Counted from the stretch's first letter, positions 401 through 43,624 are shown. The stretch is 64,000 bases of DNA from Halosegnis rubeus (GCF_009184545.1 NZ_QJOW01000001.1:186001-250000), one strand, 5' to 3'. Made by a program: numbers and translations. The notes: a model not told the origin generated them from the sequence alone.

Positions 401-408
401 CTTCAGCT
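401..408. repeat. Target-site duplication, left copy
   Basis: The 8-mer CTTCAGCT directly abuts the left end of the insertion sequence and is repeated exactly at 1103-1110 at the right end. Eight-base direct repeats are the usual target duplication of IS6-family transposition. Confidence 0.9.
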
Positions 409-2207: not shown

Positions 2208-2310
2208 TCACAGAGGTATGGCGTCGCCGACGGTATCAACGCCCCGGTTTTCCTTACACGACACACAGGTCAGACTACCAGACTATTTTGACAACATCGC
2301 CCGCAACATC

Positions 2311-2833: not shown

Positions 2834-2967
2834 GACGCCCAGAGCCGAATGGCACCGGATTTACACACAAGTCGGACTTACTGTGGTTGACAGACTCGGT
2901 ATACTGAAGTAGGGATAACATAAGATAGCGATATGAGTAGTTCGGTGAATGTGTTCGGACTAAGAGA

Positions 2968-4479: not shown

Positions 4480-4504
4480 AAGCATACTGGGGGGCTTATG
4501 TGTT

Positions 4505-4520
4505 ATTATATCGATATAAT
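4505..4520. repeat. Perfect 16-bp AT-rich palindrome
   Basis: ATTATATC is followed immediately by its reverse complement GATATAAT. It lies 26 bp after the stop of the plus-strand membrane-protein gene and before the end of the converging deacetylase relic. It may act as a transcript-end hairpin or a protein-binding site. There is no following T-run that would make it a clear terminator. Confidence 0.5.
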
Positions 4521-4630
4521 CCGATATGACACAAGGGGGTACGAAGACCGTGGCACTCTGATCCGAGTAAGATGGAGTTTCCATTGTCTCGACAGCGTGA
4601 AGTAGAGTAGCGGCTGCGTGTATTTTGGCA

Positions 4631-5419: not shown

Positions 5420-5500
5420 GCACTAATCAAGTAGCTATTCGATACCGCCATCCTCCGGTCATTGTTGACCCTCGGTTACTATCCCCAATAAGTGCAACCC

Positions 5501-26650: not shown

Positions 26651-27433
26651 ATGCCGACGCTCGCACTCCTCGCCAGCCACCCGCTGGGCGTTCGCTGTCT
26701 CGACCGCCTCCACGACCACCCCGACATCGAGGTGACGACCGTCGTTACCTACGCCCCCGACGCCGAAACGTGGTGGGAGGGGTCGGTGCGCGACCGCGCG
26801 ACGGAACTCGGATACGACGTGCTCGCACGCGAAGATGTCGACCGACTCACCGACACGCCCGTCGACTACCTGCTTTCCGTCTACTTCCCCGACATCCTTG
26901 GGGAGACGCTACTGGACCACCCGAACGAACTCCCCCTGAATCTCCATCAGGCCGAACTCCCCCGCTACCGTGGCAGTAACGTCTTCTCCCACTCCATCCT
27001 CAACGCCCGCGACGACGACTACTGGCAACACGGCACCACGCTGCACGTCATGGAGCCGTCGGTCGATTCGGGCGCCGTCATCGACCGTCGCTTCGCCGAG
27101 ATCCGCCAGTCGGACACGGCGCGGTCGCTGTACGAACGCGTCAGGGAGCAGTCGGTCGAGTTATTCGAGGCGTGGCTGCCGGCCATCGCCGACCGCACCG
27201 TCGTCGACCACCAGACCCCACAGTCCGAGTTCGACGGCCCGCGCTACTTCTACGCGAAGGACAGCCTCGACGACCTGAAATCCATCCCGCCCGAGCGACT
27301 CGCCGACCCAGACACGGAACTCTACGACCGCATCCGGGCGCTGGATTTCCCGCCCCACGAGCCGGCGTGGACCACCGTCGCCGGCGAGCGTATCTACCTC
27401 ACTCGCGACGGCTACCGACGCTACCAACGGTAA
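26651..27433 (+). CDS. Formyltransferase, probably of a nucleotide amino-sugar
   Basis: A 260-residue protein of the methionyl-tRNA formyltransferase fold. The catalytic triad is visible: Asn97 and His99 in PLNLHQAELPRYRG and Asp139 in PSVDSGAVI. The C-terminal RNA-binding domain of true Fmt is missing or replaced by a short segment, and archaea do not formylate initiator tRNA. The context (aminotransferase and oxidoreductase next door, glycosyltransferases on both sides) points to N-formylation of an amino-sugar nucleotide, as for VioF/WbkC-type enzymes using N10-formyl-THF. Formate donor availability in haloarchaea is plausible but not shown here. Its end overlaps the convergent oxidoreductase gene by 35 bases. 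Confidence 0.82.
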   Translation: MPTLALLASHPLGVRCLDRLHDHPDIEVTTVVTYAPDAETWWEGSVRDRATELGYDVLAREDVDRLTDTPVDYLLSVYFPDILGETLLDHPNELPLNLHQAELPRYRGSNVFSHSILNARDDDYWQHGTTLHVMEPSVDSGAVIDRRFAEIRQSDTARSLYERVREQSVELFEAWLPAIADRTVVDHQTPQSEFDGPRYFYAKDSLDDLKSIPPERLADPDTELYDRIRALDFPPHEPAWTTVAGERIYLTRDGYRRYQR

Positions 27434-28400
27434 CCGTCTCGCCCCGCTCGTCGGCCTGCTCGGCGTACGAAAGCAGTTCGACCGCGCGCGCACCGACTCG
27501 CCCCGAGGCGTCGAACGACCCGTCCCCGCGTGCGGCCGCGATGAACGACTCCACCTCCATCCGGAGCGGCTCGTAGCCGTCCACCTCGTAGGTGGTCTTC
27601 CCCTCGTCGCGTGCCCGGAGCTGGCCACCCTCCTCGACGACCGTCGCGTCGAACAGCGCCAGCTCCGTATCGGCCAGATAATCGATGGACGCCGCACGCT
27701 CCGTCCCGACGGCGACCAGTTCCCGGCGCTTCCCGAACGTCGGCACCTGCCACGAACTGTTGATGACGCCCGTCGCGTCCGCGTACTCGAGCACGACCGT
27801 CGCGGTCTCGTCGGTGTCCGGGCGGAGATGGCGGTCGAGTTGACAGTACACCGTCTCGGGGCGCTCGCCCACGAGCCACCCGTAGATATCAACGTCGTGG
27901 ACGGCGAGCGAGTGGAGCGTGCCGGCCGTCGCTCGCGGCGCGCGGAAGGCGTACCGGTCCGTCGAGAGATACTTCAGCCGGCCGAGTTCCCCGCGGTCGA
28001 CGCGGCGCTTGAGTTCGCGCAACGCCGGATGATATCGGAAGATGTGCCCGACGCCGAGCGTCGCGTCGGCAGCCTCGGCAGCGTCGACGATAGCCCACGC
28101 GTCGGCCGCCGTCAGCGCGAGCGGCTTCTCGACCAGACAGTCCGTCCCCGACGCGAGCAGGTCCGTCGCGATTTCGCGGTGGGTCGGTGAGGGTGTCGCC
28201 ACGACCGCAGTGTCGACATCAAGGTCGGCGTGGTCGGTAACGTACTCGACCCCGTAGTCGTTGGCTGCCGACGCCGCCCGGTCGCGGTCGGCGTCACAGA
28301 CGACGAGTTCGTCGATGACGCCCGCTTCCGCCAGCTCAGCGCCGACGCGGACGTGGTTGCTCCCCCAGTAACCGGTGCCGACGACGGCGTGGGTACTCAT
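27399..28400 (-). CDS. Gfo/Idh/MocA-family sugar oxidoreductase
   Basis: A 333-residue NAD(P)-dependent oxidoreductase. The Rossmann motif VVGTGYWGSNH is at the N-terminus, the conserved EKPLAL lies at residues 91-96, and the His-containing SLAVHDVDIYGWL lies near the active site. Proteins of this type oxidise C3 of UDP-GlcNAc(A)-like sugars (WbpB/WlbA) to give the ketone that an aminotransferase then aminates. The ATG overlaps the stop of the upstream aminotransferase gene (ATGA), supporting a joint pathway. Confidence 0.88.
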   Translation of the reverse strand: MSTHAVVGTGYWGSNHVRVGAELAEAGVIDELVVCDADRDRAASAANDYGVEYVTDHADLDVDTAVVATPSPTHREIATDLLASGTDCLVEKPLALTAADAWAIVDAAEAADATLGVGHIFRYHPALRELKRRVDRGELGRLKYLSTDRYAFRAPRATAGTLHSLAVHDVDIYGWLVGERPETVYCQLDRHLRPDTDETATVVLEYADATGVINSSWQVPTFGKRRELVAVGTERAASIDYLADTELALFDATVVEEGGQLRARDEGKTTYEVDGYEPLRMEVESFIAAARGDGSFDASGRVGARAVELLSYAEQADERGETVTVGSVGSRRE

Positions 28401-29509
28401 CGCTCCCCCTCGGCGAACGCCTCGACGGCGTCACACACCGTCGCGATGTCGTCGTCGCTCAGTCGCGGATGCATCGGGAGCGACACGGTTCGAGCGCAGT
28501 ACTCCGCCGCCACCGGGGTCTCGCTCGCGTCGACGCGCTCGCGCACCGCCGGCTGTGCCTGCACGGTGCGGTCGTAGTGGACGCCCGTCGAGACGCCCCG
28601 CTCGTCGAGGAACGCTCTGAACGCCTCGCGCTCGCCCGCTGGCACCTGCACCGGATAGTGGTGATAGACGTGCGTCGCCCCCTCGACGGTCGCCGGCGTC
28701 ACGACCGCCGAACAGGCGTTGAGCCGGTCGTCGTACGCCGCGGCGGCCTCGCGGCGGCCATCAATCCACGAGGGAAGCCGGGCCAGCTGCTCGTCGCCGA
28801 CCGCGGCGTTCGTCTCGTCGAGCCGGTAGTTCAGCCCGAGCGAGACGTGCTCGCCCGATTCGTCGCGCCCGTGATTCCGGAGCGCGCGGATGTGGTCTGC
28901 GAGCGTCTCGTCGTCGGTCGTCACCATCCCGCCGTCGCCGCCGACGGTCATGTTCTTGGTCGGGTAAAAAGAGAAACAGCCGATGTCGCCGAGGCTCCCG
29001 ACCGGTCGGCCGTCGACCGTCGCGAGGTGCGCCTGTGCGGCGTCCTCGATGACGCGCAAGTCGTGTCGGTCGGCGATAGCGAGGAGTTCGTCCATCGCCG
29101 CCGGCTGGCCGTGCATGTGGGTCACGGCGATCGCGGCCGGCGACTCGCTGGCTGCGGCCGCGTCCCGAAGCGCGTCCGGGTCCATCGTGTACCGCTCGGG
29201 GTCGATGTCGACGAATCTCGGCGTCGCGCCGAGTTCGAGTATCGGCGACACGGTCGCGAAGTAGGTGTGGGCGGGGACGAACACCTCGTCGCCCGGGCCG
29301 ATGTCGAGCACCTTCATCGCGAGCAAGAGCGCGGCCGTCCCGTTCGAGACGCCGACTGCGTGGTCGGTCTCACAGGCCGCAGCGAAGTTCGCTTCGAACG
29401 TCTCACACTCCGGTCCCTTGACGTGGCGACCGGACCGCAACACCGCCTCGACTCGTTCCACCATCGCGTCGTCCATCGCGATATCCGTGAACGGCACCGA
29501 CTCTGACAT
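28397..29509 (-). CDS. DegT/DnrJ/EryC1-family sugar aminotransferase
   Basis: A 370-residue PLP-dependent aminotransferase that would convert a keto-sugar nucleotide to the amino-sugar. The PLP lysine is Lys185 in FYPTKNMTVGGDGG, with Asp156 in VIEDAAQAH and the sugar-binding pattern GLNYRLDETNAA. The ATG at 29509 was preferred over an upstream GTG at 29521. The stop overlaps the start of the oxidoreductase gene. The pair most resembles WbpE/WlbC with WbpB/WlbA, which make 3-amino uronates. Its start lies about 80 bp from the divergent GT2 gene. Confidence 0.9.
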   Translation of the reverse strand: MSESVPFTDIAMDDAMVERVEAVLRSGRHVKGPECETFEANFAAACETDHAVGVSNGTAALLLAMKVLDIGPGDEVFVPAHTYFATVSPILELGATPRFVDIDPERYTMDPDALRDAAAASESPAAIAVTHMHGQPAAMDELLAIADRHDLRVIEDAAQAHLATVDGRPVGSLGDIGCFSFYPTKNMTVGGDGGMVTTDDETLADHIRALRNHGRDESGEHVSLGLNYRLDETNAAVGDEQLARLPSWIDGRREAAAAYDDRLNACSAVVTPATVEGATHVYHHYPVQVPAGEREAFRAFLDERGVSTGVHYDRTVQAQPAVRERVDASETPVAAEYCARTVSLPMHPRLSDDDIATVCDAVEAFAEGER

Positions 29510-29591
29510 ATCTTCGCTCACGCAGCCACGACCGTAGCTCTACCGACCCCGCTCCGGAAGGCTTTCGCCCCGGGCCATCCCACTGCGTGGC

Positions 29592-30530
29592 ATGCCGCTC
29601 GTCTCCGCCCTGATACCGACGTACAACCGCGCGGACCGCGTCGGCGGCGCGATAGACAGCGCCCTCGCACAGACCCACGACGAGCTGGAGGTCGTCGTGG
29701 TGAACGACGGCTCCACCGACGACACCCGCGCGGTGCTCGCGGAGTACGCCGACGACGACCGCGTCCGCGTCCGCCACAACGAGGAAAACCGCGGCATCGC
29801 GGCCACCTTCGACCGCGCCGCCGAGGTCGCGAACGGCGAGTATCTCGGTATCTTAGGCGACGACGACCGCTGGCGACCCGAGAAGACGGCCCGCCAGCTC
29901 GACCGCTTTGCCCAACTCAACGACGACTACGGCATCGTCTACGCCGGTGGCGTCCGCGTCGACGACGACGGGCAAACGCTCACCGAAGTGCACCCGACCG
30001 TCCACGGGAACTGCTACCCCGAGATTCTCACCGAATTCCCCCTTGCGCCCCACTCCAGTCATCTCCTCCGAGCCTCGTGTCTTGAGGCCGTCGGCGGCTT
30101 CGACACCAACTTTCCCGAGGCCGTCGACTGGGAGGTGAACATCCGGCTCGCCCGGGAGTTCCGCGTCGCATACGTGGACGAGATTCTGGTCGAGCGCCAG
30201 TTCCACGGCGGCAACGTCTCCGGCGGTGCCCTCACCGGCGATCCCGCGTATCAGGTCGCCGCCCGCGACCGCATCTGGCGGAAGTTCCGCGAGGAACTGC
30301 GCGCCCACCCCGAGACGGAACGCCGGTTCGCCGCGACCCACGAGAAACACCGCGGCCGGGTCGCCGTCGGAGACCGCGACCGCCGGCGCGCGACGGCTCA
30401 CTTCCTCGCCGCCTCGTGGCTCGACCCCTCCGTCGAACATCTCGGCTCGCTCGCGGCCGCGACGATTCACCCCCGGCTATACGACGCGCTCGCCGGCCGC
30501 GAAACGTCGCCGGCGGAGGTGCTCGGATGA
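29592..30530 (+). CDS. Family 2 glycosyltransferase
   Basis: A 312-residue GT2 with LVSALIPTYNRADRV, VVVNDGSTDDT, the acidic metal site ILGDDDRWRP and GGFDTNFPEAVDWEVNIRLA. It is a clear paralogue of the protein at 25686, including the phrase HSSH before the acceptor region and a helical tail. Its ATGA overlaps the next gene, a UDP-sugar dehydrogenase, so both are translated together. Donor is unknown, but the coupling suggests a uronic-acid-type donor made by that dehydrogenase. Confidence 0.88.
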   Translation: MPLVSALIPTYNRADRVGGAIDSALAQTHDELEVVVVNDGSTDDTRAVLAEYADDDRVRVRHNEENRGIAATFDRAAEVANGEYLGILGDDDRWRPEKTARQLDRFAQLNDDYGIVYAGGVRVDDDGQTLTEVHPTVHGNCYPEILTEFPLAPHSSHLLRASCLEAVGGFDTNFPEAVDWEVNIRLAREFRVAYVDEILVERQFHGGNVSGGALTGDPAYQVAARDRIWRKFREELRAHPETERRFAATHEKHRGRVAVGDRDRRRATAHFLAASWLDPSVEHLGSLAAATIHPRLYDALAGRETSPAEVLG

Positions 30531-31756
30531 AGGTCGCCGTCGTCGGACTCGGTCACATCGGGCTGCCGACCGCGCTCCTGCTGGCCCGGCGACACGAGGT
30601 GGTCGGCGTCGACGTGGACGAGTCGCTGGTCGCCACCCTCAACGACGGGGAGCTACCCCTCGACGAACCGGGACTCGATTCGCTCCACGACGAGGTAGCA
30701 GAGCGGTTCACCGCGGCGACGGAGCCGGAGCCGGCAGACGCCTACGTCATCACCGTGCCCACGCCGCTCGACCAGCGCGAGAACGTCGCCGACCTCGGCT
30801 TCGTCCGCGCGGCCGTCGAATCCGTCGCCGAGGTGGTCTCCGCGGGCGAACTCGTGGTGCTCGAATCGACCGTCCCGCCCGGCACCTCCGAGCGACTCGT
30901 TCAGCCGATTCTCGCCGACGCCGCCGACGACGTGCGGTACGCCCACTGTCCCGAACGGGCTATCCCTGAGCGCACGCTCGAAGAGATGACAGCAAACGAC
31001 CGCGTCGTCGGCACCGACGAGCGCGCGACCGAGACGATTCGGGACCTCTACGCGTTCACCGACGGCGAACTCCATCTGACGGACCCGACTACGGCCGAGT
31101 TCGTCAAGCTGGCCGAGAACACCTCTCGCGACGTGGGTATCGCGCTCGCAAACGAGTTCGCGACGCTCGCCGAGGGTATCGGCGTCGACGCCCACGAGGC
31201 AATCGACATCGCGAACGAACACCCCCGCGTCGACATCCTGAATCCCGGCCCGGGCGTCGGCGGCCACTGTATCACGACGGACCCGTGGTTCCTCACCGGG
31301 GCCGACGCGCAGGCCCGACTCGTCCCCCTCGCTCGCGATATCAACGACGGGATGCCGGACCACGTGCTCGGACTCGTGCGCGAGCAGGTGGCACACGTTC
31401 GCCGGCCGCGGGTCGCCGTGCTCGGCGTCGCCTACAAGCGGAACGTCAGCGACACGCGCGAGACGCCGGCCGGCCGGTTCATCCGCCGGGCCGAGAACGA
31501 CGGCTACGACGTGCGCGTCCACGACCCACACGTCGAGGCCTACGACGAACCGCTGGTCGACCGCGAGACCGCACTCGAGGGCGCAGACTGTGCGGTCGTC
31601 ATCACCGACCACGACGCCTTCCGTGAGCTCGCGCCCGCCGACTTCGACGGGATGCGAACCCGGACCGTCGTCGACTCGCGGAACATCCTCGCACACGATA
31701 CGCTTCGGGAGGCAGGTATCTCGGTGTCCGTGCTCGGCGACGGGACGCAAGGCTAG
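30527..31756 (+). CDS. wecC: UDP-N-acetylmannosamine-type dehydrogenase (WecC-like)
   Basis: A 409-residue NAD-dependent nucleotide-sugar dehydrogenase. It opens MKVAVVGLGHIGLPTALLLA, has VPTPLDQ and LESTVPPGTSE, a conserved KLAENTSRD, and the catalytic cysteine in GPGVGGHCI, followed by LGVAYKRNVSDTRETPA. The GxGHIGLP and VGGHCI patterns match the WecC/WbpA branch rather than UDP-glucose dehydrogenase. It would oxidise UDP-HexNAc at C6 to a uronic acid. The epimerase for UDP-ManNAc is encoded at 41253-42347. Confidence 0.85.
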   Translation: MKVAVVGLGHIGLPTALLLARRHEVVGVDVDESLVATLNDGELPLDEPGLDSLHDEVAERFTAATEPEPADAYVITVPTPLDQRENVADLGFVRAAVESVAEVVSAGELVVLESTVPPGTSERLVQPILADAADDVRYAHCPERAIPERTLEEMTANDRVVGTDERATETIRDLYAFTDGELHLTDPTTAEFVKLAENTSRDVGIALANEFATLAEGIGVDAHEAIDIANEHPRVDILNPGPGVGGHCITTDPWFLTGADAQARLVPLARDINDGMPDHVLGLVREQVAHVRRPRVAVLGVAYKRNVSDTRETPAGRFIRRAENDGYDVRVHDPHVEAYDEPLVDRETALEGADCAVVITDHDAFRELAPADFDGMRTRTVVDSRNILAHDTLREAGISVSVLGDGTQG

Positions 31757-31782
31757 TTAGGGTCGGGGTCGCAGACGGGGGT

Positions 31783-32793
31783 ATGAGCGACGACGCCGAC
31801 CCACTCCACCGGATCATCGCCCGCAAGGTGCGTGCCAACGGGCTAAATCCACGCTGGTGGGTGACGAACGCATATCCGTGGCTCCGCCGTCGACTCCGTG
31901 ACGCTGCGTTCCGCGGGCTGATGGATATCCGGCGTCGCGACGCCTTCGACCACTACGAGGCCGAGTGGGACAATCTCGTCATCCTCGACGCCTGCCGGTA
32001 TGACCTCTTTGCGTCCACGCATGACCTACCGGGCGAACTCGAACAGCGCCACTCCAAGGGATCTGCGACCGCCGAGTGGCTCAGCCGTCACTTCGCCAAC
32101 CGCGACGCCCACGACACCGTCTACGTGACGGCGAATCCGATGTATCGCGCGACCGAGTGGGTCGGCGCGGACCTCTCGGAGACGTTCCACGACGTTATCG
32201 ACCTGACCGAGGGTGCGTTCGTCGAGGACGGCACCACGATGCCGTACACTGTCGCCGCCGCAGCCGCGTGGGCCGCAGACGAATATCCCGACAAGCGGCT
32301 GCTCGTCCACTTCATGCAGCCACACCACCCGTTTGTTAGCCGATTCGCCCGCGAACGCGGGCTGCTTGACCCCGAGATGCGCCTCCGACAGTTCGTCACC
32401 GACGGCGAGACCAAGACGGAGGTCCGGGCGTGGCGCGCGTGGGGCCGGCAGGTTGAGGAGGGGGAACTTCCCGTCGAGACGCTGTGGCGGGCCTACCGCG
32501 AGAACCTCAAACTCGCGCTCCCTGCTGTCCACGGCCTGCTTGATGCGCTTGACGGCCGAACCGTCGTGACCAGTGACCACGGCAACATGCTCGGTGAGCG
32601 CGCGACCCCGTTCGCCGAAACCGTCTGGGGCCACCCGCAGGAGTACCAGACGCCCGAACTGGTCGACGTGCCGTGGCTGGTCACCAATCCCGACGCGCCG
32701 AGACGGGAGACGACGGCCGACCCACCAATCGACCGCACCGCCCGCGACAATAATGAACTCTCCGACCGACTCTCCGCGCTCGGGTATGCCTGA
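31783..32793 (+). CDS. Alkaline-phosphatase-superfamily (sulfatase-like) protein
   Basis: A 336-residue soluble protein with metal-site segments of the phosphatase/sulfatase superfamily: DNLVILDACRYDLF (N-terminal Asp with a Cys where sulfatases carry the formylglycine precursor), HFMQPHHPF, and VTSDHGNMLGE (late Asp-His). It ends LSDRLSALGYA, like the sulfatase tail at position 1-225. It might remove or transfer a phosphate or sulfate on surface glycans. In the haloarchaeal group the usual C-x-P-S/C-R sequence is here CRYD, so true sulfatase activity is uncertain. It overlaps the flippase gene by eight bases. Confidence 0.75.
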   Translation: MSDDADPLHRIIARKVRANGLNPRWWVTNAYPWLRRRLRDAAFRGLMDIRRRDAFDHYEAEWDNLVILDACRYDLFASTHDLPGELEQRHSKGSATAEWLSRHFANRDAHDTVYVTANPMYRATEWVGADLSETFHDVIDLTEGAFVEDGTTMPYTVAAAAAWAADEYPDKRLLVHFMQPHHPFVSRFARERGLLDPEMRLRQFVTDGETKTEVRAWRAWGRQVEEGELPVETLWRAYRENLKLALPAVHGLLDALDGRTVVTSDHGNMLGERATPFAETVWGHPQEYQTPELVDVPWLVTNPDAPRRETTADPPIDRTARDNNELSDRLSALGYA

Positions 32794-34231
32794 CCTCGAA
32801 GGGCGGGCCGCCCGCGGCGGGCTGTGGGCGGCCGGCGAGACCGCGCTCGTCCGCGGGCTCGAACTGGTCCGGTACGTCGCCATCGCCCGCCTGCTCGTCC
32901 CGAGCCAAATCGGGCTGTTCACGTTCGGTATCATCACCCTCTCGGTCGTCAAGCAGTTCTCAAATCTGGGTATCGACGCCGCCATCATCGCACAGGACGG
33001 CGACATCGACCGCCAACTCGACGCCGCCTTCAGCCTCCAAATCGTTCGCTCGCTCGTCCTTGCCAGCCTCCTCTACGTTGCCGCGCCGATCCCGGCCGCC
33101 GTCTTCGGTGACGAGTCGGTCGTCCGACTCGTCCGGCTCATCGCCATCATCCCGCTCATCGACACGGTGGAGAACCCCGCGACCGTCGTCTTCGAGAAGG
33201 AGCTGAACTTCCGGCGGCGCTCGCTGTTTCGAGTCTCCGGCGTGCTCGCGAACGCGGCCGTCTCGATTGGACTTGCCTACCGATTCCGGTCCGTCGACGC
33301 ACTCGTGGCCGGAGTCATCGCCGGCGCGGCGGTTCATACCGTCGTCTCGCATCTCCTCACCGACCACAGCCCGTTTCCCTCGTTCGATATCGAACAGATG
33401 CGCACGCTGTTCGACTACGGCAAGTGGCTCACCGGCAGTTCCATCGTCTCGTGGATTTACCGCGAGGGAGACGACGCACTCGTCGGGGCCGTCGTCGGGA
33501 GCGCCGGGCTCGCCTACTACCGGAGCGCGTTCCAGTTCGGACAGGCTCCCCAGTCGGAACTCACGGGCGTCGTCAGCGAGGTGGCGTTCCCGACCTACGC
33601 ACAGGTGAAGGACGACGCCCACGCCCTGCTGGTCGGCTACCGGCGGACCCTCGGGGTCGCCGTGACAGCCGTCTTCCCTGCCGCCGCCGGCACCGCACTT
33701 GTCGCGCCGGTGTTCGTCCCGGTCGTGCTCGGGCCGGGGTGGGAGCCGACGATTCGCCCGCTCCAGATTATCGCGCTCGCGGCCGTCGGCCACGCCGTCG
33801 CGGCCACCGCTGGCTCGCTCTGGCAGGCGCTCGACCGCCCGGACCTCTCGACGAAGACACAGACGCTCTCGATGGTCGTCCTCGCCGTGACCGCCGTACC
33901 CGCCACCCTCGAATACGGCGTCGTCGGCACCGCGGCCGCCGTCACCGTCACCGCCTTCGTCGTCGCGCCGGTCCGCATCCTGCTCGTCGCGCGGCTGCTC
34001 GATACCTCGATTGTCTCGCTCCTAACGCCGGTCGCCGGACCGGCACTCGCGACGCTGTTGATGGCTGCCGCTGTCGCGCCGACGGTCACAGCCCTCCCGA
34101 CGACGCTGCTCGGACTGCTCGGGAGTATCGGGGTCGGCGTCGTCGTCTACGGCGTGGCCATCCTCGTACTCGACGTGACCCGGCTCGACACCCTCGACCC
34201 GGTTCGGGAACTGCTCGACGCGCTCACCTGA
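32786..34231 (+). CDS. Polysaccharide flippase (MOP superfamily)
   Basis: A 481-residue membrane protein with about fourteen helices. The N-terminus RAARGGLWAAGETALVRGLELVRYVAIARLL is typical of Wzx/RfbX-like flippases, followed by PSQIGLFTFGI and an internal EKELNFRRRSLFRVSG. Such proteins move lipid-linked oligosaccharides from the inner to the outer face of the membrane. The ATG at 32786 lies inside the end of the phosphatase-like gene. It ends convergently with the next gene, overlapping by eight bases. Confidence 0.88.
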   Translation: MPDLEGRAARGGLWAAGETALVRGLELVRYVAIARLLVPSQIGLFTFGIITLSVVKQFSNLGIDAAIIAQDGDIDRQLDAAFSLQIVRSLVLASLLYVAAPIPAAVFGDESVVRLVRLIAIIPLIDTVENPATVVFEKELNFRRRSLFRVSGVLANAAVSIGLAYRFRSVDALVAGVIAGAAVHTVVSHLLTDHSPFPSFDIEQMRTLFDYGKWLTGSSIVSWIYREGDDALVGAVVGSAGLAYYRSAFQFGQAPQSELTGVVSEVAFPTYAQVKDDAHALLVGYRRTLGVAVTAVFPAAAGTALVAPVFVPVVLGPGWEPTIRPLQIIALAAVGHAVAATAGSLWQALDRPDLSTKTQTLSMVVLAVTAVPATLEYGVVGTAAAVTVTAFVVAPVRILLVARLLDTSIVSLLTPVAGPALATLLMAAAVAPTVTALPTTLLGLLGSIGVGVVVYGVAILVLDVTRLDTLDPVRELLDALT

Positions 34232-35387
34232 GCAGCCCCTGCTCCGTGAGCCGGCGCTCCTTCTCCTGACAGAAATCGGTCCACGTCGGGACAACATCCC
34301 GGTTCGGCGTCTCGTCGCTGTCGAGTCGCGCGGCGACAGCGTCGGCCCACGATCCGGGGTCGGGGTCAGCGACCGAGACGGCCGGCTCCGCGGCGAGTAG
34401 TTCCTTCGCGTAGGTGTCCGTCGCGAGCACGACGGGCGTCCCGACGCCGTACGCCTCCAGCGGCGACAGCCCGTAGGACATCCACGCCGAGCAGCCAAAC
34501 ACGTCCGCGCCGGCGTAGTAGCCCGGCAGGTCGGCGTCGTCGACGTAGCCGGCGAACGTCACCCGACGCTCGATGCCGGCGTCGGCGACCGCCTCGCGCA
34601 GGCGTTCCTCGTCCGGGCCGGTGCCACAGACGGTGAGTCCCGCGTCGTAGCCACGCTCCGTGAGCTGAGCGACGGCGCGAATCTGGGTCTCGATGCGCTT
34701 GCGCGGGTCGAGTCTGCTCACCGACAGCAGGTCGTGCTCGTGATTGGAGAGCGCTCGGGGGTCGTGACCATCCAGCCACGCCGCGTCGATACCCGGCCGG
34801 ACGACGGTGCTGTCGGCGTCGTACAGCCCGTCGAGTTCGCGGGCGACACGCTGTGAACCGGTGAAGACGGCCGCCGCCTTCCGGAGCCCGCGCCCGCGAA
34901 CGCGCTCGCCAATCGTCGCCCACAGTCGTTGTCGCGCCGAGAGGTCCGGCGGGTCGTGGAACGTCCGGTGGCCCGGCACCTCCGAAACGAGCCGTTCGTA
35001 GACCGGCGTGTCGACGTGTGGGACGAGCCGCGGGTCGTCGGCAAACCACAGCACGGAGCCGTGGACGTGAGGTGCATACGGCGTCCCGTCGAGACCACAA
35101 CAGACGCTCACTTCCTCGGTGGCGTAGTGGGAGAGAACGAGGTCGGGGTCGCGCTCGGAAAGCAGGGGACGAAGCCGGCGAACGCCGCGCCATCCCTTGT
35201 GCGGGCGGCCGTATTCGACCGTCTCAACCGAGTCGGGCAGCGTCTCCGCCACGTAGCCGGCGTCGTACTCCGGGGCGAACACCGTCACATCGTGGTCGCC
35301 GGCGAAGTGGGTCGCTTCCTCGATACAGAGCCGTTCCGCGCCGCCGGGGGGTACGAGCGTGAGACCGAAGACGACGCAGACGTGCAT
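34224..35387 (-). CDS. GT4-type glycosyltransferase
   Basis: A 387-residue GT-B enzyme. The N-terminus reads VVFGLTLVPPGGAERLCIEEA (the PGGAER loop of GT4 proteins), the donor half has SVSRLDPRKRIETQI and VCGTGPDEERL, and the E-x7-E region appears as SYGLSPLEAYGVGTPVV, where only the second Glu is clear. It would extend the glycan from a nucleotide-sugar donor. It starts next to the GT2 gene at 35439 (same strand, about 50 bp apart). Confidence 0.88.
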   Translation of the reverse strand: MHVCVVFGLTLVPPGGAERLCIEEATHFAGDHDVTVFAPEYDAGYVAETLPDSVETVEYGRPHKGWRGVRRLRPLLSERDPDLVLSHYATEEVSVCCGLDGTPYAPHVHGSVLWFADDPRLVPHVDTPVYERLVSEVPGHRTFHDPPDLSARQRLWATIGERVRGRGLRKAAAVFTGSQRVARELDGLYDADSTVVRPGIDAAWLDGHDPRALSNHEHDLLSVSRLDPRKRIETQIRAVAQLTERGYDAGLTVCGTGPDEERLREAVADAGIERRVTFAGYVDDADLPGYYAGADVFGCSAWMSYGLSPLEAYGVGTPVVLATDTYAKELLAAEPAVSVADPDPGSWADAVAARLDSDETPNRDVVPTWTDFCQEKERRLTEQGLLR

Positions 35388-35438
35388 ATCCGGCGAACGC
35401 GGCGACAGGAAAAGTCAGTTGTGCTCGGTGCCGTTCGG

Positions 35439-36331: not shown

Positions 36332-36357
36332 GGTCGCTTTGGTCGCTCTGAGCGTGA

Positions 36358-38049
36358 ATGTCTTTCGGGTGGGACCAGTACACTGAGGTGGTGTCAGCGG
36401 CTCAGTCTGGTATGTCTATCCCAACAGTCGAACTTCACGGCCCGTTCGCGCGCGACGGGGAGACGCTCGCTGCAGGGTACGGTTTCGTTGACGGCGAGGG
36501 GTACGCCGACGCGGCACTCGCCAGTTGTCTCCCCGATGATGGGGGAGAACTATCCGAGACACTAGCGGACGTTGGCGGGTTCTGGGCTGTCATCCACGAG
36601 GGAGAACCGACCGTCGTCACCGTTGACCGACTACGGAGCCACCCGCTCTACTACGTTGCTAACCCTACGTCTGCAGAGGGTCCCCTCGTGACCGACGACG
36701 TGGATACCGCTTGCCATTCGGTCGCCGGCGACCCCGGAGATGACCCTCTCGCGGCCGGTGAGTACCTGCTGACTGGGCGGGTCTCTAGAGACGAAACTCT
36801 TGTTCCCGACATCGTCGCTATCCCTCCGGGAACACAACTTGTCATCGAAGGTGACGATACGCGCTACGTTGAACACGTCAAGTACACACACGAGAACACC
36901 AGCAGCGACAACCTCACAGCCCGGTACGAACAGGCGATAGAGACTGCATTCAACCGACTCATCGAATACGCCGATGGACGACCAATCGCAGTGTCGTTAT
37001 CCGGTGGACACGACTCACGGCTCGTCGCAACTGAGCTCGCTCGCCGCGAATACGACCCCGTCGTCGCATTCACTTACGGTGGGGCACACACCGAGCGCGA
37101 GGTAGCCGAACGTGTCGCCGCCGATCTCGAACTGCCCTGGTCGTTCGTCGATTTCGATCACGAGACGTTCCGGGCGTGGTATCGCTCTCTCGCCAGACCG
37201 GCGTTTGACTGTGCTTCGGGGTGGATTGCTTCGGTACCCAACCCATCGTTGGCGTTCGCGATGGAACTGCTTCGAAGACGCGGAGATATCCCACGGGAGA
37301 CGGTTGTCGTCACTGGAGACGGCCCACAGACGACTGGCGAACACCTCCCAACGTCGTTTCGTGGAAGCGTCTCGCGGTCGCAGTTCGTTGATGAACTCCT
37401 TGCCCACAACTACGGCACGTGGGTGTGGAATCGTGACCGATATCAAGCCTCGCTCGGTGAGCGCGTGCTGGCGACCGTTCCAGACGCGCCGTTCGAGGAC
37501 GGCACGGAGCGTGTCCCAGTAGAAGTAGCTGCGAGTGCGTACGAACGGTGGGACTGGCGGGAGCGACAGGCAAAGCGCATCCGTTCGACCCCGGCGTATG
37601 AGCACGCTGGATTCGACTGGTGGTTTCCGTTGTGGGATACCAGTATCATGGAATTCTGGCAGTCGGTCCCGCTCGAACATCGACGGAACAAGCGTTTCCA
37701 CGACCGATACACCGAACGATACTACACGAGAACGTCCTCGCTGTCTGCCCCCGAGGAGACGTTCTCGTCAGGAAAGAGTCGAATGCGGACACATCTCGAA
37801 CAGGTGATTGGAACGACGCCGGTCGTCGGTCAACTTGCGCGTGCGATTCGTGACCGACTCGCGTCACCGGGTCGGTCCTACTACTCGGACCCGACGCTCG
37901 GAATGGTCGATAGCAAAACGTTCGACGATGTCGTTGACCGCCTCTCAGACCGTAGCGTGCCGCCATCAGTGTATTTTCACGCACTCCTGTTGTTGGACCG
38001 AATCGAAGCTGACCGCGTTCCTCCGTCACTGTCGATTTTCCCTGAGTGA
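36358..38049 (+). CDS. Asparagine-synthase-like protein lacking the catalytic cysteine
   Basis: A 563-residue protein with an N-terminal domain similar to class II glutamine amidotransferases (GGFWAVIHEGE, then RLRSHPLYYVAN) and a C-terminal PP-loop ATP pyrophosphatase domain whose ATP site is SLSGGHDSR (residues 212-220) followed by FTYGGAHTERE. Glutaminase-active asparagine synthases have Cys directly after the initiator Met; here the N-terminus is MSFGWDQ, so ammonia or another donor would be needed. Family members in glycan clusters amidate uronic-acid sugars or related acids. GC is slightly lower than neighbours. Confidence 0.78.
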   Translation: MSFGWDQYTEVVSAAQSGMSIPTVELHGPFARDGETLAAGYGFVDGEGYADAALASCLPDDGGELSETLADVGGFWAVIHEGEPTVVTVDRLRSHPLYYVANPTSAEGPLVTDDVDTACHSVAGDPGDDPLAAGEYLLTGRVSRDETLVPDIVAIPPGTQLVIEGDDTRYVEHVKYTHENTSSDNLTARYEQAIETAFNRLIEYADGRPIAVSLSGGHDSRLVATELARREYDPVVAFTYGGAHTEREVAERVAADLELPWSFVDFDHETFRAWYRSLARPAFDCASGWIASVPNPSLAFAMELLRRRGDIPRETVVVTGDGPQTTGEHLPTSFRGSVSRSQFVDELLAHNYGTWVWNRDRYQASLGERVLATVPDAPFEDGTERVPVEVAASAYERWDWRERQAKRIRSTPAYEHAGFDWWFPLWDTSIMEFWQSVPLEHRRNKRFHDRYTERYYTRTSSLSAPEETFSSGKSRMRTHLEQVIGTTPVVGQLARAIRDRLASPGRSYYSDPTLGMVDSKTFDDVVDRLSDRSVPPSVYFHALLLLDRIEADRVPPSLSIFPE

Positions 38050-38135
38050 ACGGCGTGCGTGAAAAGTATCGAATACACGACATTGCAGTACTCTTGCGCT
38101 GGAAACAAAACGATCAGCTCCGATGGCTATCTGTT

Positions 38136-38243
38136 CTATCTCTCCATATTATCGTCTCGAAGTGCCCGAACGCTCTCGATGGCGTCGGCGAGTCGCCCGT
38201 TGCGGTAGTGTGTCGGGATGACGACGGAGACGAGCGGAGCCAT
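38136..38243 (-). pseudogene. N-terminal fragment of a GT2 glycosyltransferase
   Basis: A 35-codon frame starting at ATG 38243 reads MAPLVSVVIPTHYRNGRL and ADAIESVRAL, then diverges and stops at 38136. It is a near copy of the N-terminus of the GT2 gene that begins at 36331 (LVSVVVPTHYRNDRL), in the same orientation. Everything after the first strand and helix is missing, so it cannot be functional. Confidence 0.7.
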
Positions 38244-38324
38244 ACTCGGGGTTCACCCTCCGTCGGCGAATGGCTTTCGACCGCCAGCCGGAAGGCTGAT
38301 TGTGCGACTCCCGGTGAAACGGGT

Positions 38325-40067
38325 ATGGACGACCGGACGCGCCTGCTCTCCGAGTGGGTGGCCCAACCCCCCGCCGGCCCGCTCGTGCAGTATCTCCGCG
38401 ACGCCGAGCGACGCGCCGCCCTCGATGCCCTCGGTTCGCCGACCCACGTCCTCGACATCGCCTCCGAGACCGGGGTCACTCGCGCGCTCCCCGACGACGC
38501 GACCGTCACCCGCCTCGATTTCTCGCCCGAAGCCAGCGCCCGCGCGCGAGACGCCCTCAATGGGATCGAGAACTTCGCGTCGACGACGCCCGAGTCACCG
38601 ACGCTCCCGTTCGGGCGGGCGCGGTTCGACGCCGCGGTTTGTGTCGGCCCGCTCGATTGGCGGTTCCTCGACGCCGACGCTCTCGCCCGCGAGGTGAGCC
38701 GCGTCCTCACGCGCGCGGGGACCTTCGCCGTCACCGCTCCGACGCCCGAATCTCCATATCACGCCGGCGGTCGCTACGAACTCACCTACCGGACCCCCGA
38801 CGAGTTCGAGAGCGTGTTGGCCCCGCATTTCCACCCTGACGACCAGACGTACATCTACCAGCCGCCCGAGAAGGTGCAGTGGCTCGCGGGCAACCTCCCG
38901 ACTGGCCTCGAACAGCGGGTCGCCGACTACGCGCAACGCCGCACGGAGACCTGCTCCCGTGACCGCGCCAGCTACGTCGTCACCGGGGCGACCGCCCCCG
39001 GCTACCGCGCACGACTGGATGACGCGCTCGACTGCCTGCTCCGCCCGGTCGACGACCACGGCTTCTTCGACCCCGAGACCGACCGCTTTCACGGCCGACT
39101 CGACTACTCGCTGACGGACACGAGCGCGATGCGCTGGCGCGCCGGCGAGGGGTCGCGGCGCCGCTACGGCCCGCTCGCCCTGCTCGGGGTGGCGCGCTGG
39201 CGACAGTCGCCGCTCGGCGACGACCGCTACGACGACCGAATCTCCCGGCTCGCCGACGGCTACGAGACGCTCGTCGAGACCGAGGGGGACGAGCTTCCGA
39301 GCTACGCGCTCGGTCCCCTGACCGGGGCGTTTGCGCTCCTCTCGATGGCCGGTTTCGACACGCTCTCGATCGCAGAGGACGCGTTCGCCCGGTCGCGCGA
39401 CCGCTTCGCGTTCGACCACAGCGAGGACGGTCTCCTGCTTCACGGCTGGAGCTATCTTCACGACGCGACCGAGGACCCAATCGAGGTGACCACCGCCCTC
39501 CGCGAGGGCGCACAGGCCGTCGCCGCCCGACAGGACCCCGAGACGGGACTGTTCGCGTTCGACAACCCGACGACCGACCGCCACCAGAACCAGATGTACG
39601 TGCTCTGGGGGCTGTGTCGCGCTATCGAGGTAGCCGCCGGCGACGGCTATCTGGAGAACGCCACGGCCGTTCTCGACTACACGCTCGACACGCGGCTCCG
39701 TGATGACGGCGCGCTCCTGTGGCTCGAACCCGGGCGCATCGAAGAGCTGAGCGTCGCCCTCGGGCGCGGTGAGTACCCCCAGTGGAAGCTGCTGTTCGCC
39801 TGTCATCAGTCCTTCTTCGCCATCGCGGCGGCCCACTACCGACGGGCTGGCGGTGACCGTAACCTCGACCGACCGGTCGAGCGCGCGATGGCGTGGCTCC
39901 ACGGGACCAACGACCTTGGGCGGGACCTGACCGACCTGACGGGACTCGGCGTGCCGGCCCGCCATCTCACCACCGACGGCCGGCTCGATGCCCCCCGCGA
40001 GCAGTTCAAGGGGGCCTACGAAATCGGCGCGTATCTGTTCGCGCTCACCGAACTCACCGCGTGGTGA
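38325..40067 (+). CDS. Methyltransferase fused to an alpha-helical toroid-like domain
   Basis: A 580-residue two-part protein. Residues about 30-190 look like a class I SAM methyltransferase: THVLDIASETGVTRAL (motif I), ATVTRLDFSPEASARARD (motif II), FDAAVCVGPLDWRFLDAD (motif IV). Residues about 220-580 are helical with repeated patterns such as YGPLALLGVARWR, LGPLTGAFALLSMAG, GLLLHGWSYLHDA and NQMYVLWGLCRAIE, resembling (alpha/alpha) barrel enzymes or prenyltransferase-like toroids acting on glycans or lipids. The ATG at 38325 gives the shortest complete domain; the frame extends upstream through the GT2 fragment region. Confidence 0.7.
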   Translation: MDDRTRLLSEWVAQPPAGPLVQYLRDAERRAALDALGSPTHVLDIASETGVTRALPDDATVTRLDFSPEASARARDALNGIENFASTTPESPTLPFGRARFDAAVCVGPLDWRFLDADALAREVSRVLTRAGTFAVTAPTPESPYHAGGRYELTYRTPDEFESVLAPHFHPDDQTYIYQPPEKVQWLAGNLPTGLEQRVADYAQRRTETCSRDRASYVVTGATAPGYRARLDDALDCLLRPVDDHGFFDPETDRFHGRLDYSLTDTSAMRWRAGEGSRRRYGPLALLGVARWRQSPLGDDRYDDRISRLADGYETLVETEGDELPSYALGPLTGAFALLSMAGFDTLSIAEDAFARSRDRFAFDHSEDGLLLHGWSYLHDATEDPIEVTTALREGAQAVAARQDPETGLFAFDNPTTDRHQNQMYVLWGLCRAIEVAAGDGYLENATAVLDYTLDTRLRDDGALLWLEPGRIEELSVALGRGEYPQWKLLFACHQSFFAIAAAHYRRAGGDRNLDRPVERAMAWLHGTNDLGRDLTDLTGLGVPARHLTTDGRLDAPREQFKGAYEIGAYLFALTELTAW

Positions 40068-41256
40068 GGTCGTCGTACACCCGGCGCAGTCGCTCGGCGT
40101 CGCGCGCCCAACCGTACTCCCCCTCGACGGCGCGGCGACCCGACTCGCCGTAGTGGGTGAGGTCTTCTCCGACCAACTCCGAGATTCGCGCGGCGGTCGC
40201 GGTCGGATTCTCCGGCGGAACCACGACCCCCGACTCCGTCTCGCGGACGATACGCCCGAGCGGGCCGACGTCCGTGACGAGCACCGGCGTTTCGAGCGCC
40301 ATGTACTGAAACAGCTTGTGCGGCACCGTCGTCGCGGTGTGGCCGGTCTCGCGGTGTGGCACCGTCGCGAGGTCGCTCGCCGCGATGTAGCGGGGCACGT
40401 CTGCGAAGTCGACCCACCCGGTGAACGTGACCCGGTCAGCCACACCCTCCGACTCGGCCAACTCCCGAAGGCGACGGTCCGACTCCGCGCTTCCGGAACC
40501 GACGAGCAGGAGCGACACCTCCGGCGGCGTATCCGAGAGCGCCCGAATCAGCGTCTCCAGCCCGCGGTGTGGCCCGAACGCGCCGACGTAGGAGACGACG
40601 AAGCCGTCGGGAACGTCATCGGGACCCGGCGTGTGGTCCATCGTATCGATGCGGTCGAGGTCGACCGTGTTCGAGACGACGTGGACGCGGTCGGGGTCGC
40701 CGTCGCAGTCTGTGATGTAGTGGTCGCGCGCCTCCTCGACGACCGTCACGAGCGCGTCCGCCTGCCCGACGGCCTCGCGCTCGGCGCGCTCGATGCGCGA
40801 AATCGGCCGGAGGAGTCGACCCTGCAGTCGCTCGAGCAGCGACCGCTCGGAGCGGTACTGTGCCATCGCCGCCGGATAGTTCTCGTGGAGGTCGGCGACG
40901 ACGGACACGTCACCGAGCGAGCGGGCGACCCGCAGCCCTGTCCGGACCAGCGGGAGGTCGTGGACGTGGAGCACGTCGATATCGTGGACCGACGCAAACC
41001 GTCGCGCGCGCCGGAACCAGATGGCGTCGAACGAGCCGAACAGGTAGCTCGCGCGGTTCACCGCGCGGGTCGCCACGCTGTAGCCGTCCCAGTCGATGCG
41101 CTCGATTGCGACGCCGTCGACGGCCGCCGGCTCGGTCCCCTCGCCTGCGAGACAGAGCAGATACACCTCGTGGCCGGCTTCCCGGAGTGCTGCCGCCTCC
41201 TTCCGGACGCGGATATCCTCCGGGTAGCTCCCTCGCAGGAGCATCCCGACCTTCAT
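40054..41256 (-). CDS. GT4-type glycosyltransferase
   Basis: A 400-residue GT-B enzyme beginning MKVGMLLRGSYPEDIRVRKEAAALREAGHEVYLL, the acceptor-binding half, with HVHDLPLVRTGL in the middle and a donor half with VSYVGAFGPHRGLETLI, LLVGSG and KLFQYMALETPVLVTD. This end pattern fits GT4 proteins that use UDP- or GDP-sugars. Its ATG overlaps the stop of the UDP-GlcNAc 2-epimerase gene (ATGA), suggesting it uses the sugar derived from that pathway. It meets the methyltransferase fusion gene tail to tail, overlapping by 14 bases. Confidence 0.88.
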   Translation of the reverse strand: MKVGMLLRGSYPEDIRVRKEAAALREAGHEVYLLCLAGEGTEPAAVDGVAIERIDWDGYSVATRAVNRASYLFGSFDAIWFRRARRFASVHDIDVLHVHDLPLVRTGLRVARSLGDVSVVADLHENYPAAMAQYRSERSLLERLQGRLLRPISRIERAEREAVGQADALVTVVEEARDHYITDCDGDPDRVHVVSNTVDLDRIDTMDHTPGPDDVPDGFVVSYVGAFGPHRGLETLIRALSDTPPEVSLLLVGSGSAESDRRLRELAESEGVADRVTFTGWVDFADVPRYIAASDLATVPHRETGHTATTVPHKLFQYMALETPVLVTDVGPLGRIVRETESGVVVPPENPTATAARISELVGEDLTHYGESGRRAVEGEYGWARDAERLRRVYDDLTTR

Positions 41257-42347
41257 CCGTCCACCTCCAGCGTCTCGACCAACGCGTCGACGATACGCTC
41301 GCCCGCCTGTCCGTCGCCGTAGAGGTCCGGATGGCCGGTCATCGCGGCCCGCGCGTCGGCGTCGGTCGCCAGCGCCCGGAGTCGCGTTGCGAGATTCGAC
41401 GGCTCGACCAGTTCGTTCACGCCGGCCTCGACCGTCTCCGGGCGCTCGGTGTTCGGCCGTACCGTGAGACACGGGGTTTCGAGGACGGACGCCTCCTCCT
41501 GTACCCCGCCGGAGTCGGTGACGACGACATGTGCCCCGTCGAGTAAGGCGAGGAAGTCGAGATACCCCTGCGGCTCCGCGAGCCGGAGCGAGCCGTCCGG
41601 CTCGACTCCGAGCGCCTCGATTGTGGTCTCCGTGCGCGGGTGGGCGGGGAGGACGACCGGTATCGGCGCGCCGTCGAGTGCGCCGAGAATCGCCCGCAGC
41701 CGGTCGGGAGCCTCGGTGTTGTGCGGCCGATGTATCGTCGCGAGCGCGTACCCGTCCGACTCGACGCCGAACCGCGAGCGCGCGTCGGACTGCTCGCGCG
41801 CGACGGGCGCGTGGTCGAGACACGCGTCCACGACCGTGTTTCCGGTCTGCGTGACGCCCACCTCGATGCCCTCGCCGGCGAGGTTGGCGACGGCGCTCTC
41901 GGTCGGGGCAAACAGCAGCTCCGAGAGGTGGTCGGCGACGACGCGGTTCACTTCTTCGGGCATGGTTCGGTCGTAGCTTCGCAGGCCGGCCTCGATGTGG
42001 CCGACGAGCGTGTCGCGTTTCGCCCCGGCCAGCGTCGCCGCGAGGACGGCGTTCGTGTCCCCGAGCGTGAGCACGGCTGCCGGCTCCCGTTGGGCGATAT
42101 CGGCGTCGATACCGACGAGCCCGTCGGCGGTCTGTTGTGCGCCGCCGGTGCTGCCAACGTCGAGATTCACCGCCGGTTCGGGCAGCCCGAGCACGTCGAA
42201 GAACTCGCCGCTGAGCTCCGCGTCGTAGTGTTGGCCGGTGTGGAGCAGTCGCGGCTCCGTCGCCGGCTGTGAATCGAGCGCGCGGAGCACGGGAGCCATC
42301 TTCACGAGTTCGGGTCGCGTCCCGACGACGGCGAGCACCGTCACCAC
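41253..42347 (-). CDS. wecB: UDP-N-acetylglucosamine 2-epimerase
   Basis: A 364-residue non-hydrolysing epimerase. It opens VLAVVGTRPELVKMAPVL, has HTGQHYDAELSGEFF, VGHIEAGLRSYDRTMPEEVNR and VVTDSGGVQEEASVLETPCLTVR near the C-terminus, all strong family motifs. It interconverts UDP-GlcNAc and UDP-ManNAc, the substrate of WecC-like dehydrogenases. Two consecutive GTG codons (42347 and 42344) could start translation. It overlaps the UDP-glucose-dehydrogenase-like gene upstream and the GT4 gene downstream, forming a three-gene unit. Confidence 0.93.
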   Translation of the reverse strand: MVTVLAVVGTRPELVKMAPVLRALDSQPATEPRLLHTGQHYDAELSGEFFDVLGLPEPAVNLDVGSTGGAQQTADGLVGIDADIAQREPAAVLTLGDTNAVLAATLAGAKRDTLVGHIEAGLRSYDRTMPEEVNRVVADHLSELLFAPTESAVANLAGEGIEVGVTQTGNTVVDACLDHAPVAREQSDARSRFGVESDGYALATIHRPHNTEAPDRLRAILGALDGAPIPVVLPAHPRTETTIEALGVEPDGSLRLAEPQGYLDFLALLDGAHVVVTDSGGVQEEASVLETPCLTVRPNTERPETVEAGVNELVEPSNLATRLRALATDADARAAMTGHPDLYGDGQAGERIVDALVETLEVDG

Positions 42348-43624
42348 GTCAATCCCTCGTAGGTCATCCCCTCGCGGGCCTCGATGATGCGCCGACCGTC
42401 CACGACGACCTGTCGCGCCATCGCGTCGAACTCGCCATCGAGGGCACCGAACGCGGGCCAGTCGGTGACGACGAGCGCGCCGACGGCTCCCGAAAGTGCG
42501 TCGCTCGCGCTGTCGGTGTACTCAACGTCTGGGTACGCACGCGCCATCGTCTCGCTCGCGTCCGAGGGGTCGTACGCCGCCACCTCGGCCCCTCGTTCCT
42601 GTAGCCCGGCGATGACCGGCTTCGCGCGCGAGCCGCGGATGTCGTCGGTGTCGGGCTTGAACGCGAGTCCGAGCACGGCGACGCGTTCGCCGGCCACGTC
42701 GACGTGCCGGTCGAGGAGTTCGAGCAGGCGACGCGGTTGCGTCTCGTTGACTCCGACGACCGCGTCGAGCAGTTCGGGTTCGTAGTCGCGGTCCCGGGCG
42801 GCGGCCCGGAGCGCGTCGGTGTCCTTGGGAAAGCAGCTACCCCCCCATCCCACCCCCGACCGGAGGAACTGCGCCCCGATGCGGTCGTCCAGTCCCATCG
42901 CCTCGGCCACCTCGTAGGAGTCGACGCCGTACTCCTTGCAGATGTTGCCGAGTTCGTTGATGAGCGAGACTTTCGCGGCGAGAAAGACGTTGTTGGCGTA
43001 CTTCATCATCGCGGCCTCTCGGCGACCCGTCTCCACGACCGGCGGCTCGTCCGGGAGGGGTGCATACACCGCCCGGAGGGCGTCGAGCGCGCGGTCGTCG
43101 TCGGTGCCGATGACGACCTTGTCGGGGTGCATGAAGTCGTCCACGGCGCTGCCCTGTGCCTGAAACTCGGGGTTGACCGCCGTCGCGAAGGTCTCGCCTT
43201 CCGGACCCGCGGCCTGCTCGATGCGCGGGACGACCTCCTCTTCGACCATCCCAGGGATGGCGGTGGATTTGACGGCGACGGTGTGGAACGTCTCCTTCTG
43301 TGCGAGTGCCTCGCCGAGCGATTCGGCAGCGGCGAGGACGACCGACGGGTCGATGCTGCCGTCCTCGCGGGCGGGGGTCTGGACGGTGATGAACGAGCAG
43401 TCCGTCTCGCGGACGGCGGCGTAGTCGGTGGTCGCGGAAATCCGGTCGGCGTTCTCATCGTACAGCTCACCGAGCCTGGGTTCGGCCATCGGTGGCTCGC
43501 CGGCTTCGATGCTCGCGACGACCGATTCGTCGATATCGATGGCCGTCACTTCGTGGCCGAGCGCGGCCAGACAGCCGGTGAGAGTCGCGCCGACGTAGCC
43601 GGAGCCGATGACGCTGACGTGCAT
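42341..43624 (-). CDS. aglM: UDP-glucose 6-dehydrogenase
   Basis: A 427-residue nucleotide-sugar dehydrogenase opening MHVSVIGSGYVGATLTGCLAALGHEV. It has VQTPAREDGSID, KSTAIPGMVEE and EFQAQGSAVDDFMHPDKVVIG, and the catalytic cysteine in GVGWGGSCFPKDT. The GWGGSCFPKD motif is characteristic of UDP-glucose dehydrogenases, which make UDP-glucuronic acid. It resembles Haloferax AglM, which works in N-glycosylation. It is the first gene of the unit with wecB and a GT4 gene. The window therefore holds two different C6 dehydrogenases. Confidence 0.88.
   Translation of the reverse strand: MHVSVIGSGYVGATLTGCLAALGHEVTAIDIDESVVASIEAGEPPMAEPRLGELYDENADRISATTDYAAVRETDCSFITVQTPAREDGSIDPSVVLAAAESLGEALAQKETFHTVAVKSTAIPGMVEEEVVPRIEQAAGPEGETFATAVNPEFQAQGSAVDDFMHPDKVVIGTDDDRALDALRAVYAPLPDEPPVVETGRREAAMMKYANNVFLAAKVSLINELGNICKEYGVDSYEVAEAMGLDDRIGAQFLRSGVGWGGSCFPKDTDALRAAARDRDYEPELLDAVVGVNETQPRRLLELLDRHVDVAGERVAVLGLAFKPDTDDIRGSRAKPVIAGLQERGAEVAAYDPSDASETMARAYPDVEYTDSASDALSGAVGALVVTDWPAFGALDGEFDAMARQVVVDGRRIIEAREGMTYEGLTW

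Follow-up and report, generated by a model that had tools for sequence, protein, structure and literature searches.

Several described systems bear on the gene cluster considered here. The WbpA/B/E/D/I and WlbABC pathways, which lead to UDP-ManNAc3NAcA, oxidise C3, aminate and then N-acylate. GnnA/GnnB and the archaeal NF040723 family likewise pair a Gfo-family C3 oxidase with a DegT-type aminotransferase, and the product of GnnA/GnnB goes into lipid A and not into an N-formyl sugar. Known sugar N-formyltransferases (ArnA, WbkC, FdtF, QdtF, WlaRD and VioF) act on 4-amino or 3-amino-6-deoxy sugars carried by UDP, GDP or dTDP. In haloarchaea, 5-N-formyl-legionaminic acid occurs in Halorubrum sp. 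PV6, where it is an N-formylated sugar of a surface glycan with a candidate formyltransferase in the N-glycosylation cluster, and is a nonulosonic acid synthesised through the Leg pathway instead of C3 oxidation and transamination (PMC6137143); in addition, a putative 4-N-formyltransferase is encoded on a haloarchaeal plasmid (PMC11431627). We examined a 64,000-nt stretch of a haloarchaeal contig from Halosegnis rubeus (G000:C6:186001-250000, hereafter the window), in which a sugar N-formyltransferase (FT) lies beside a Gfo/Idh/MocA dehydrogenase (Gfo1) and a C3-type sugar aminotransferase (AT1). An earlier reading of this cluster, referred to here as the original prediction, proposed a 3-formamido-uronic sugar. 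Taken as a whole, the data are best explained, with moderate confidence, by a trio that would make UDP-2-acetamido-3-formamido-2,3-dideoxy-D-glucose (UDP-GlcNAc3NFo) for a surface glycan.

That FT formylates the amine produced by AT1 is supported chiefly by its exchange for an acetyltransferase at one genomic position. At Gfo1-AT1 loci without a close FT, a hexapeptide acetyltransferase stands in its place, convergent with Gfo1 and 20-112 bp away. Across 34 Gfo1 loci, this slot holds FT (22 loci), the acetyltransferase (10) or neither gene intact (2, decayed or incomplete), and never both intact; 20 of the 22 FT genes and all 10 slot acetyltransferase genes are convergent with Gfo1. In genome G138, an acetyltransferase fills the slot on contig C1 with an FT broken by five in-frame stops behind it, and contig C4 carries an FT-type locus. 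The best solved relatives of the slot acetyltransferase are sugar N-acetyltransferases, namely WxcM-like 4mzu, 7s43, lipopolysaccharide acetyltransferase 3mqg (WlbB) and QdtC 3fs8, and the WlbB and QdtC types are 3-N-acetyltransferases. On the Gfo1+AT1 tree, the FT/acetyltransferase label changes five times (shuffle mean 8.7), four of these changes being forced by well-supported branches, a count that does not tell gain from loss, and the nearest kin outside the window's genus (L063, L081 and L076) carry the acetyltransferase. Judging from these loci, FT and the acetyltransferase have replaced each other at least four times in haloarchaea and, because they do so repeatedly at one step, most likely fulfil one and the same function, each with its own acyl donor. 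FT thus very probably formylates the AT1-made amine, in agreement with the original prediction, which had it cap the amine in the stead of an acetyltransferase.

As already noted in that prediction, the cluster is devoid of the expected sugar N-acetyltransferase (WbpD/WlbB type). The prediction had further proposed to look for one elsewhere in the genome, and a genome-wide search by PF00132 and by direct homology found none, GNAT-type acetyltransferases lying outside its scope. The hexapeptide proteins found in this genome (PF00132, labelled by eye) resemble two GlmU-like proteins, a nucleotidyltransferase, DapD, a gamma-carbonic anhydrase, CysE, a maltose-O-acetyltransferase-like and a WcaF-like protein. 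With the slot acetyltransferase as query, the genome yielded no hit beyond the CysE-like protein (51.5 bits) and the WcaF-like one (39.4 bits), as compared with 220-295 bits for true homologues elsewhere.

Across genomes of the class, the association of FT with Gfo1 far exceeds chance. Of 391 genomes, 28 carry FT (counted at ≥50% identity) and 32 carry Gfo1 (E≤1e-60), and both occur together in 24 genomes versus 2.3 expected (hypergeometric P=1.5e-27), a value that overstates the case since related genomes are not independent, yet matches came from many genera and from five family codes.

FT itself shares the fold, the Asn-His-Asp site and the small C-terminal part of the known sugar N-formyltransferases, with which its identity is about 24% at best, and differs from them in its predicted acceptor, a 3-amino UDP-hexosamine. 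It matches Formyl_trans_N (PF00551) with 58.4 bits (cut-off 26.1), and the C-terminal dimerisation domain PF18216 with 22.1 bits, below the cut-off of 25.8. The residues Asn97, His99 and Asp139 singled out in the original prediction are conserved in an alignment of 28 homologues, which all share N97, H99 and G141; D139 is found in 27 of them. ArnA formyltransferase domains are the nearest solved relatives both by sequence and by predicted fold, the FT model (pLDDT 87) matching the UDP-sugar formyltransferase ArnA best, with Z 24.3 and a root-mean-square deviation (rmsd) of 3.1 over 243 residues. The homologue departing at position 139 (L057, 10001-10777) has a Glu there, an altered C-terminal stretch and no Gfo1-AT1 pair nearby, and is probably decaying. 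A second group of haloarchaeal formyltransferases (L061, L062 and L065), 31-35% identical to FT, is found near another type of aminotransferase and likely serves a different formyl sugar.

Gfo1 and AT1 overlap by 4 nt and so look like one transcript, and FT overlaps Gfo1 tail-to-tail by 35 nt. K92 and H168 of Gfo1 are invariant in 29 homologues. By sequence, Gfo1 is closer to GnnA (7bvj, 71 bits) than to WlbA/WbpB (3q2i, 48 bits), and its model matches GnnA 7bvj over the full length (Z 36.3, rmsd 2.2, 296 aligned). The original description of the pair as WbpB/WbpE-like therefore stands in part: these neighbours are indeed an oxidoreductase and an aminotransferase, and WbpE is among the relatives of AT1, but the oxidoreductase is nearer to the archaeal and GnnA UDP-GlcNAc 3-dehydrogenases than to WlbA/WbpB. 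Fold was discarded as a criterion for distinguishing between GnnA-like and WlbA-like substrates, as the Z-scores of Gfo1 are nearly tied (36.3 versus 35.1). Furthermore, Gfo2, the counterpart of Gfo1 in an apparent uronic pathway of related genomes (type 2, see below), is itself nearer GnnA; likeness to GnnA is therefore no guide to the order of C3 and C6 oxidation. DesV, QdtB and WbpE, all of which aminate C3, are among the best solved relatives of AT1. These relatives, together with those of the WlbB and QdtC types for the slot acetyltransferase, favour C3 as the position at which the trio acts, and we regard this regiochemistry as probable.

The substrates, regiochemistry and products of the pathway that we propose are inferred from such relatives. 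Gfo1 would oxidise C3 of a UDP-sugar, on balance UDP-GlcNAc, the 3-keto group would be converted to a 3-amine by AT1, and FT would then move a formyl group from N10-formyl-tetrahydrofolate onto this amine, in a role taken elsewhere in haloarchaea by the hexapeptide acetyltransferase. Folate use is indicated by a PurN/PurH-type fusion and by PurU-like proteins encoded in the genome (both labelled by eye). In this genome, the product would be the neutral UDP-GlcNAc3NFo, which the glycosyltransferases of the cluster, with the family 2 enzyme GT2b as a candidate, would take into a surface glycan, the destination being itself a supposition. The WecB-like epimerase and the WecC-like dehydrogenase would supply UDP-ManNAcA, and the UDP-glucose 6-dehydrogenase AglM would supply UDP-GlcA, as separate sugars.

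Several observations weigh against this scheme. FT lies 2.7-5.8 kb away from Gfo1 at four loci (L039, L041, L047 and L055), and two genomes (G215 and G326) have a lone intact FT while their Gfo1 carries the acetyltransferase, so that the exchange is not strict at the genome level. The best NCBIfam match of Gfo1, the UDP-GlcNAc 3-dehydrogenase NF040723, scores 181.8 bits, below the equivalog cut-off of 450, which together with its 71 bits to GnnA makes it a distant relative only, and its fold matches several sugar dehydrogenases of other substrates about equally. At one of three diagnostic positions, the window's epimerase has a Leu that fits neither known class. Finally, WecC and GT2b adjoin the trio in the window's genus, and L036, L054 and L056 have a WecC homologue (56-63%) close to theirs; because of this proximity, C6 oxidation of the formamido sugar keeps some likelihood.

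Such an oxidation is at the heart of the alternative that survives best, although we consider it unlikely, namely that the cluster encodes one pathway in which WecC or AglM oxidises the 3-formamido sugar at C6 and WecB perhaps epimerises it, to give UDP-GlcNAc3NFoA or UDP-ManNAc3NFoA in this genome. The WecB-like epimerase and the two C6 dehydrogenases (WecC-like and UDP-glucose type) on which the original prediction built are indeed there, all genes lie within 17 kb with only GT2b between WecC and AT1, and the genome encodes no PF02350 protein other than the epimerase (TIGR00236, 316 bits versus a cut-off of 210). The diagnostic residues of that enzyme mostly point elsewhere. The UDP-GlcNAc3NAcA 2-epimerase of Thermus thermophilus has Ala18, Tyr96 and Trp307, to which Leu/Met, His/Gln and Arg correspond in UDP-GlcNAc enzymes (PMC10622841); the window's enzyme has Met, Leu (at the Tyr96 equivalent) and Arg, that is, two of three residues of the UDP-GlcNAc type, Met and Arg standing in for the Ala and Trp of 3-acylamino-uronic epimerases, and not the Ala/Tyr/Trp of the WbpI type. 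As for a C6 dehydrogenase acting on the same sugar, as in the WbpA/B/E/D/I pathway, the WecC-like enzyme present resembles UDP-ManNAc dehydrogenases, its best PDB matches being Cap5O and an archaeal UDP-ManNAc dehydrogenase. Moreover, of 27 genomes (those 24 in which FT and Gfo1 co-occur, together with G131, G015 and G018), 7 have their WecB and WecC homologues paired, with 30-160 bp between them and mostly far from the trio; in the window, the two genes are 9.5 kb apart. The FT trio is also found without any WecC homologue at E≤1e-70, for instance in G012, G058 and G086. The simplest reading of these data is that WecB and WecC form a separate UDP-ManNAcA route and AglM a UDP-GlcA supply, and C6 oxidation of the formamido sugar is, on the whole, not expected in this genome. 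Compared with the Wbp and Wlb pathways, FT would take the place of the WbpD/WlbB acetyltransferase in a cluster without a WbpI-type epimerase.

That FT can be part of a uronic route, a further point for the single-pathway alternative, is suggested by the type-2 operons of relatives. In Halobacterium salinarum DSM 3754 (L059/L110) and Halorussus halobius (L108), a same-strand run of overlapping or closely spaced genes comprises, with FT first, FT, the aminotransferase AT2, Gfo2, a C6 dehydrogenase and an epimerase. Ala/Tyr/Trp occupy the diagnostic epimerase positions in L058, L059/L110, L076 and L108, and the order of steps of the Wbp and Wlb pathways is complete in the type-2 sets. Searched with the acetyltransferases, the DSM 3754 genome gave nothing above 49 bits, and L076 has the acetyl version of the set, with the acetyltransferase in front of AT2. 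The product in L059/L110 and L108 can be soundly predicted to be 2-acetamido-3-formamido-mannuronic acid, made via UDP-ManNAc3NFoA, which is the N-formyl analogue of a known bacterial sugar. In line with such uronic acids, 2,3-diacetamido-glucuronic acid has been reported from the polysaccharide of Haloferax denitrificans (PMC3191746). The 3-formamido-uronic product originally predicted is consequently retained for its formamido part, is not supported in this genome for its uronic part via the WecB-like epimerase, and as a product type finds support in the type-2 operons of other strains.

Less probable still is that the trio acts on a sugar not derived from UDP-GlcNAc, such as UDP-GlcA or a hexose, to give a 3-formamido-3-deoxy sugar without the 2-acetamido group. 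The divergence of Gfo1 from all models and the variety of its fold matches would allow this, AglM makes UDP-GlcA in the same cluster, and where a genome carries sets of types 1 and 2 together, the two would have to make different products; against it, UDP-GlcNAc 3-dehydrogenase is both the best family of Gfo1 and its best sequence match among solved structures, and the slot acetyltransferase resembles the WlbB and QdtC types. Lastly, FT as a tRNA, purine or amino-acid formyltransferase, or as a dead relic, set in a glycan cluster by chance is very improbable in spite of the width of the PF00551 superfamily and of the close fold of Fmt (Z 22.3), given the conserved catalytic residues, the association with Gfo1, the exchange with a sugar acetyltransferase, and the other purine/folate candidates of the genome. 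Indeed, the other PF00551 proteins look like PurU and a PurN/PurH-type fusion (both labelled by eye), on which account purine or tRNA formylation by FT was rejected, and chance proximity to the pathway was ruled out by co-occurrence and slot conservation.

With UDP-GlcNAc3NFo as the preferred product in this genome, a formyl sugar in haloarchaea is a real and testable prediction. The original statement that the product is not described in haloarchaea holds in so far as a literature search, in which subscription journals were mostly not covered, returned no 3-formamido sugar in archaea and no paper combining "3-formamido" with "uronic acid"; it needs qualifying in that N-formyl sugars as such are already on record there. 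The predicted class, a 2-acetamido-3-formamido hexose with a uronic version in other strains, is hence one not found in the literature searched for haloarchaeal surface glycans. H. salinarum DSM 3754, an obtainable and culturable type strain, has all five genes of the uronic pathway in its formyl form, which opens the prediction to direct mass spectrometry. With the enzyme that follows switched at least four times between a formyl- and an acetyltransferase while the two upstream enzymes stay the same, these loci constitute an unusually clean natural experiment. We tentatively suggest that the N-acyl group of the 3-amino sugar may be an exchangeable surface trait in haloarchaea, formyl and acetyl versions of the unit swapping repeatedly in two parallel pathways, to a neutral 2,3-diamino sugar and to a 2,3-diamino uronic acid; if so, the exchange could, for example, alter virus receptors or mating recognition.

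Features of the cluster, with positions counted from the first nucleotide of the window; the families of FT, Gfo1 and AT1 were confirmed by Pfam and NCBIfam, labels given by eye are marked, and gene starts are provisional.
Feature	Position	Strand	Remarks
FT, sugar N-formyltransferase, 260 aa	26651-27433	+	PF00551; N97/H99/D139; best solved relative ArnA formyltransferase domain
Gfo1, Gfo/Idh/MocA dehydrogenase	27399-28400	-	Predicted nucleotide-sugar C3 dehydrogenase (GnnA/WlbA-like)
AT1, PLP-dependent C3-type sugar aminotransferase	28397-29509	-	DegT/DnrJ/EryC1/StrS; Pfam/NCBIfam, solved relatives
GT2b, family 2 glycosyltransferase	29592-30530	+	Candidate user of the formamido sugar
WecC-like UDP-ManNAc 6-dehydrogenase	30527-31756	+	Probably in a separate UDP-ManNAcA route
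Sulfatase/phosphatase-like protein	31783-32793	+	By eye; no match in Pfam or NCBIfam
Flippase-like polytopic membrane protein	32753-34231	+	By eye
GT4-like glycosyltransferase	34224-35387	-	By eye
Asparagine-synthase-like protein	36358-38049	+	In low-GC patch of the cluster
Two-part protein, N-terminal methyltransferase domain	38325-40067	+	Recurs with FT-type trio
GT4b glycosyltransferase	40054-41256	-	Recurs with FT-type trio; start not fixed
WecB-like UDP-sugar 2-epimerase	41253-42347	-	Met/Leu/Arg at diagnostic positions (mostly UDP-GlcNAc type)
AglM, UDP-glucose 6-dehydrogenase	42341-43624	-	NF041297 equivalog, 691 bits, cut-off 670

Among the neighbours of the trio, close homologues of GT2b, of the two-part methyltransferase-like protein and of GT4b recur at FT-type loci (L036-L039, L047, L053, L054 and L056, in part) and are absent from acetyltransferase-type loci; these genes possibly form one glycan-assembly module. 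Lone intact FT genes at L040 (8302-9069) and L046 (9992-10759) lie beside a UppP-like gene (labelled by eye), and the Gfo1-AT1 of these genomes carries the acetyltransferase. As regards base composition, positions 1-6000 at the start of the window have a low GC content (0.50-0.52) relative to that of most of the window (about 0.68), and the lower-GC patch at the asparagine-synthase-like gene (0.596) may reflect a recent import.

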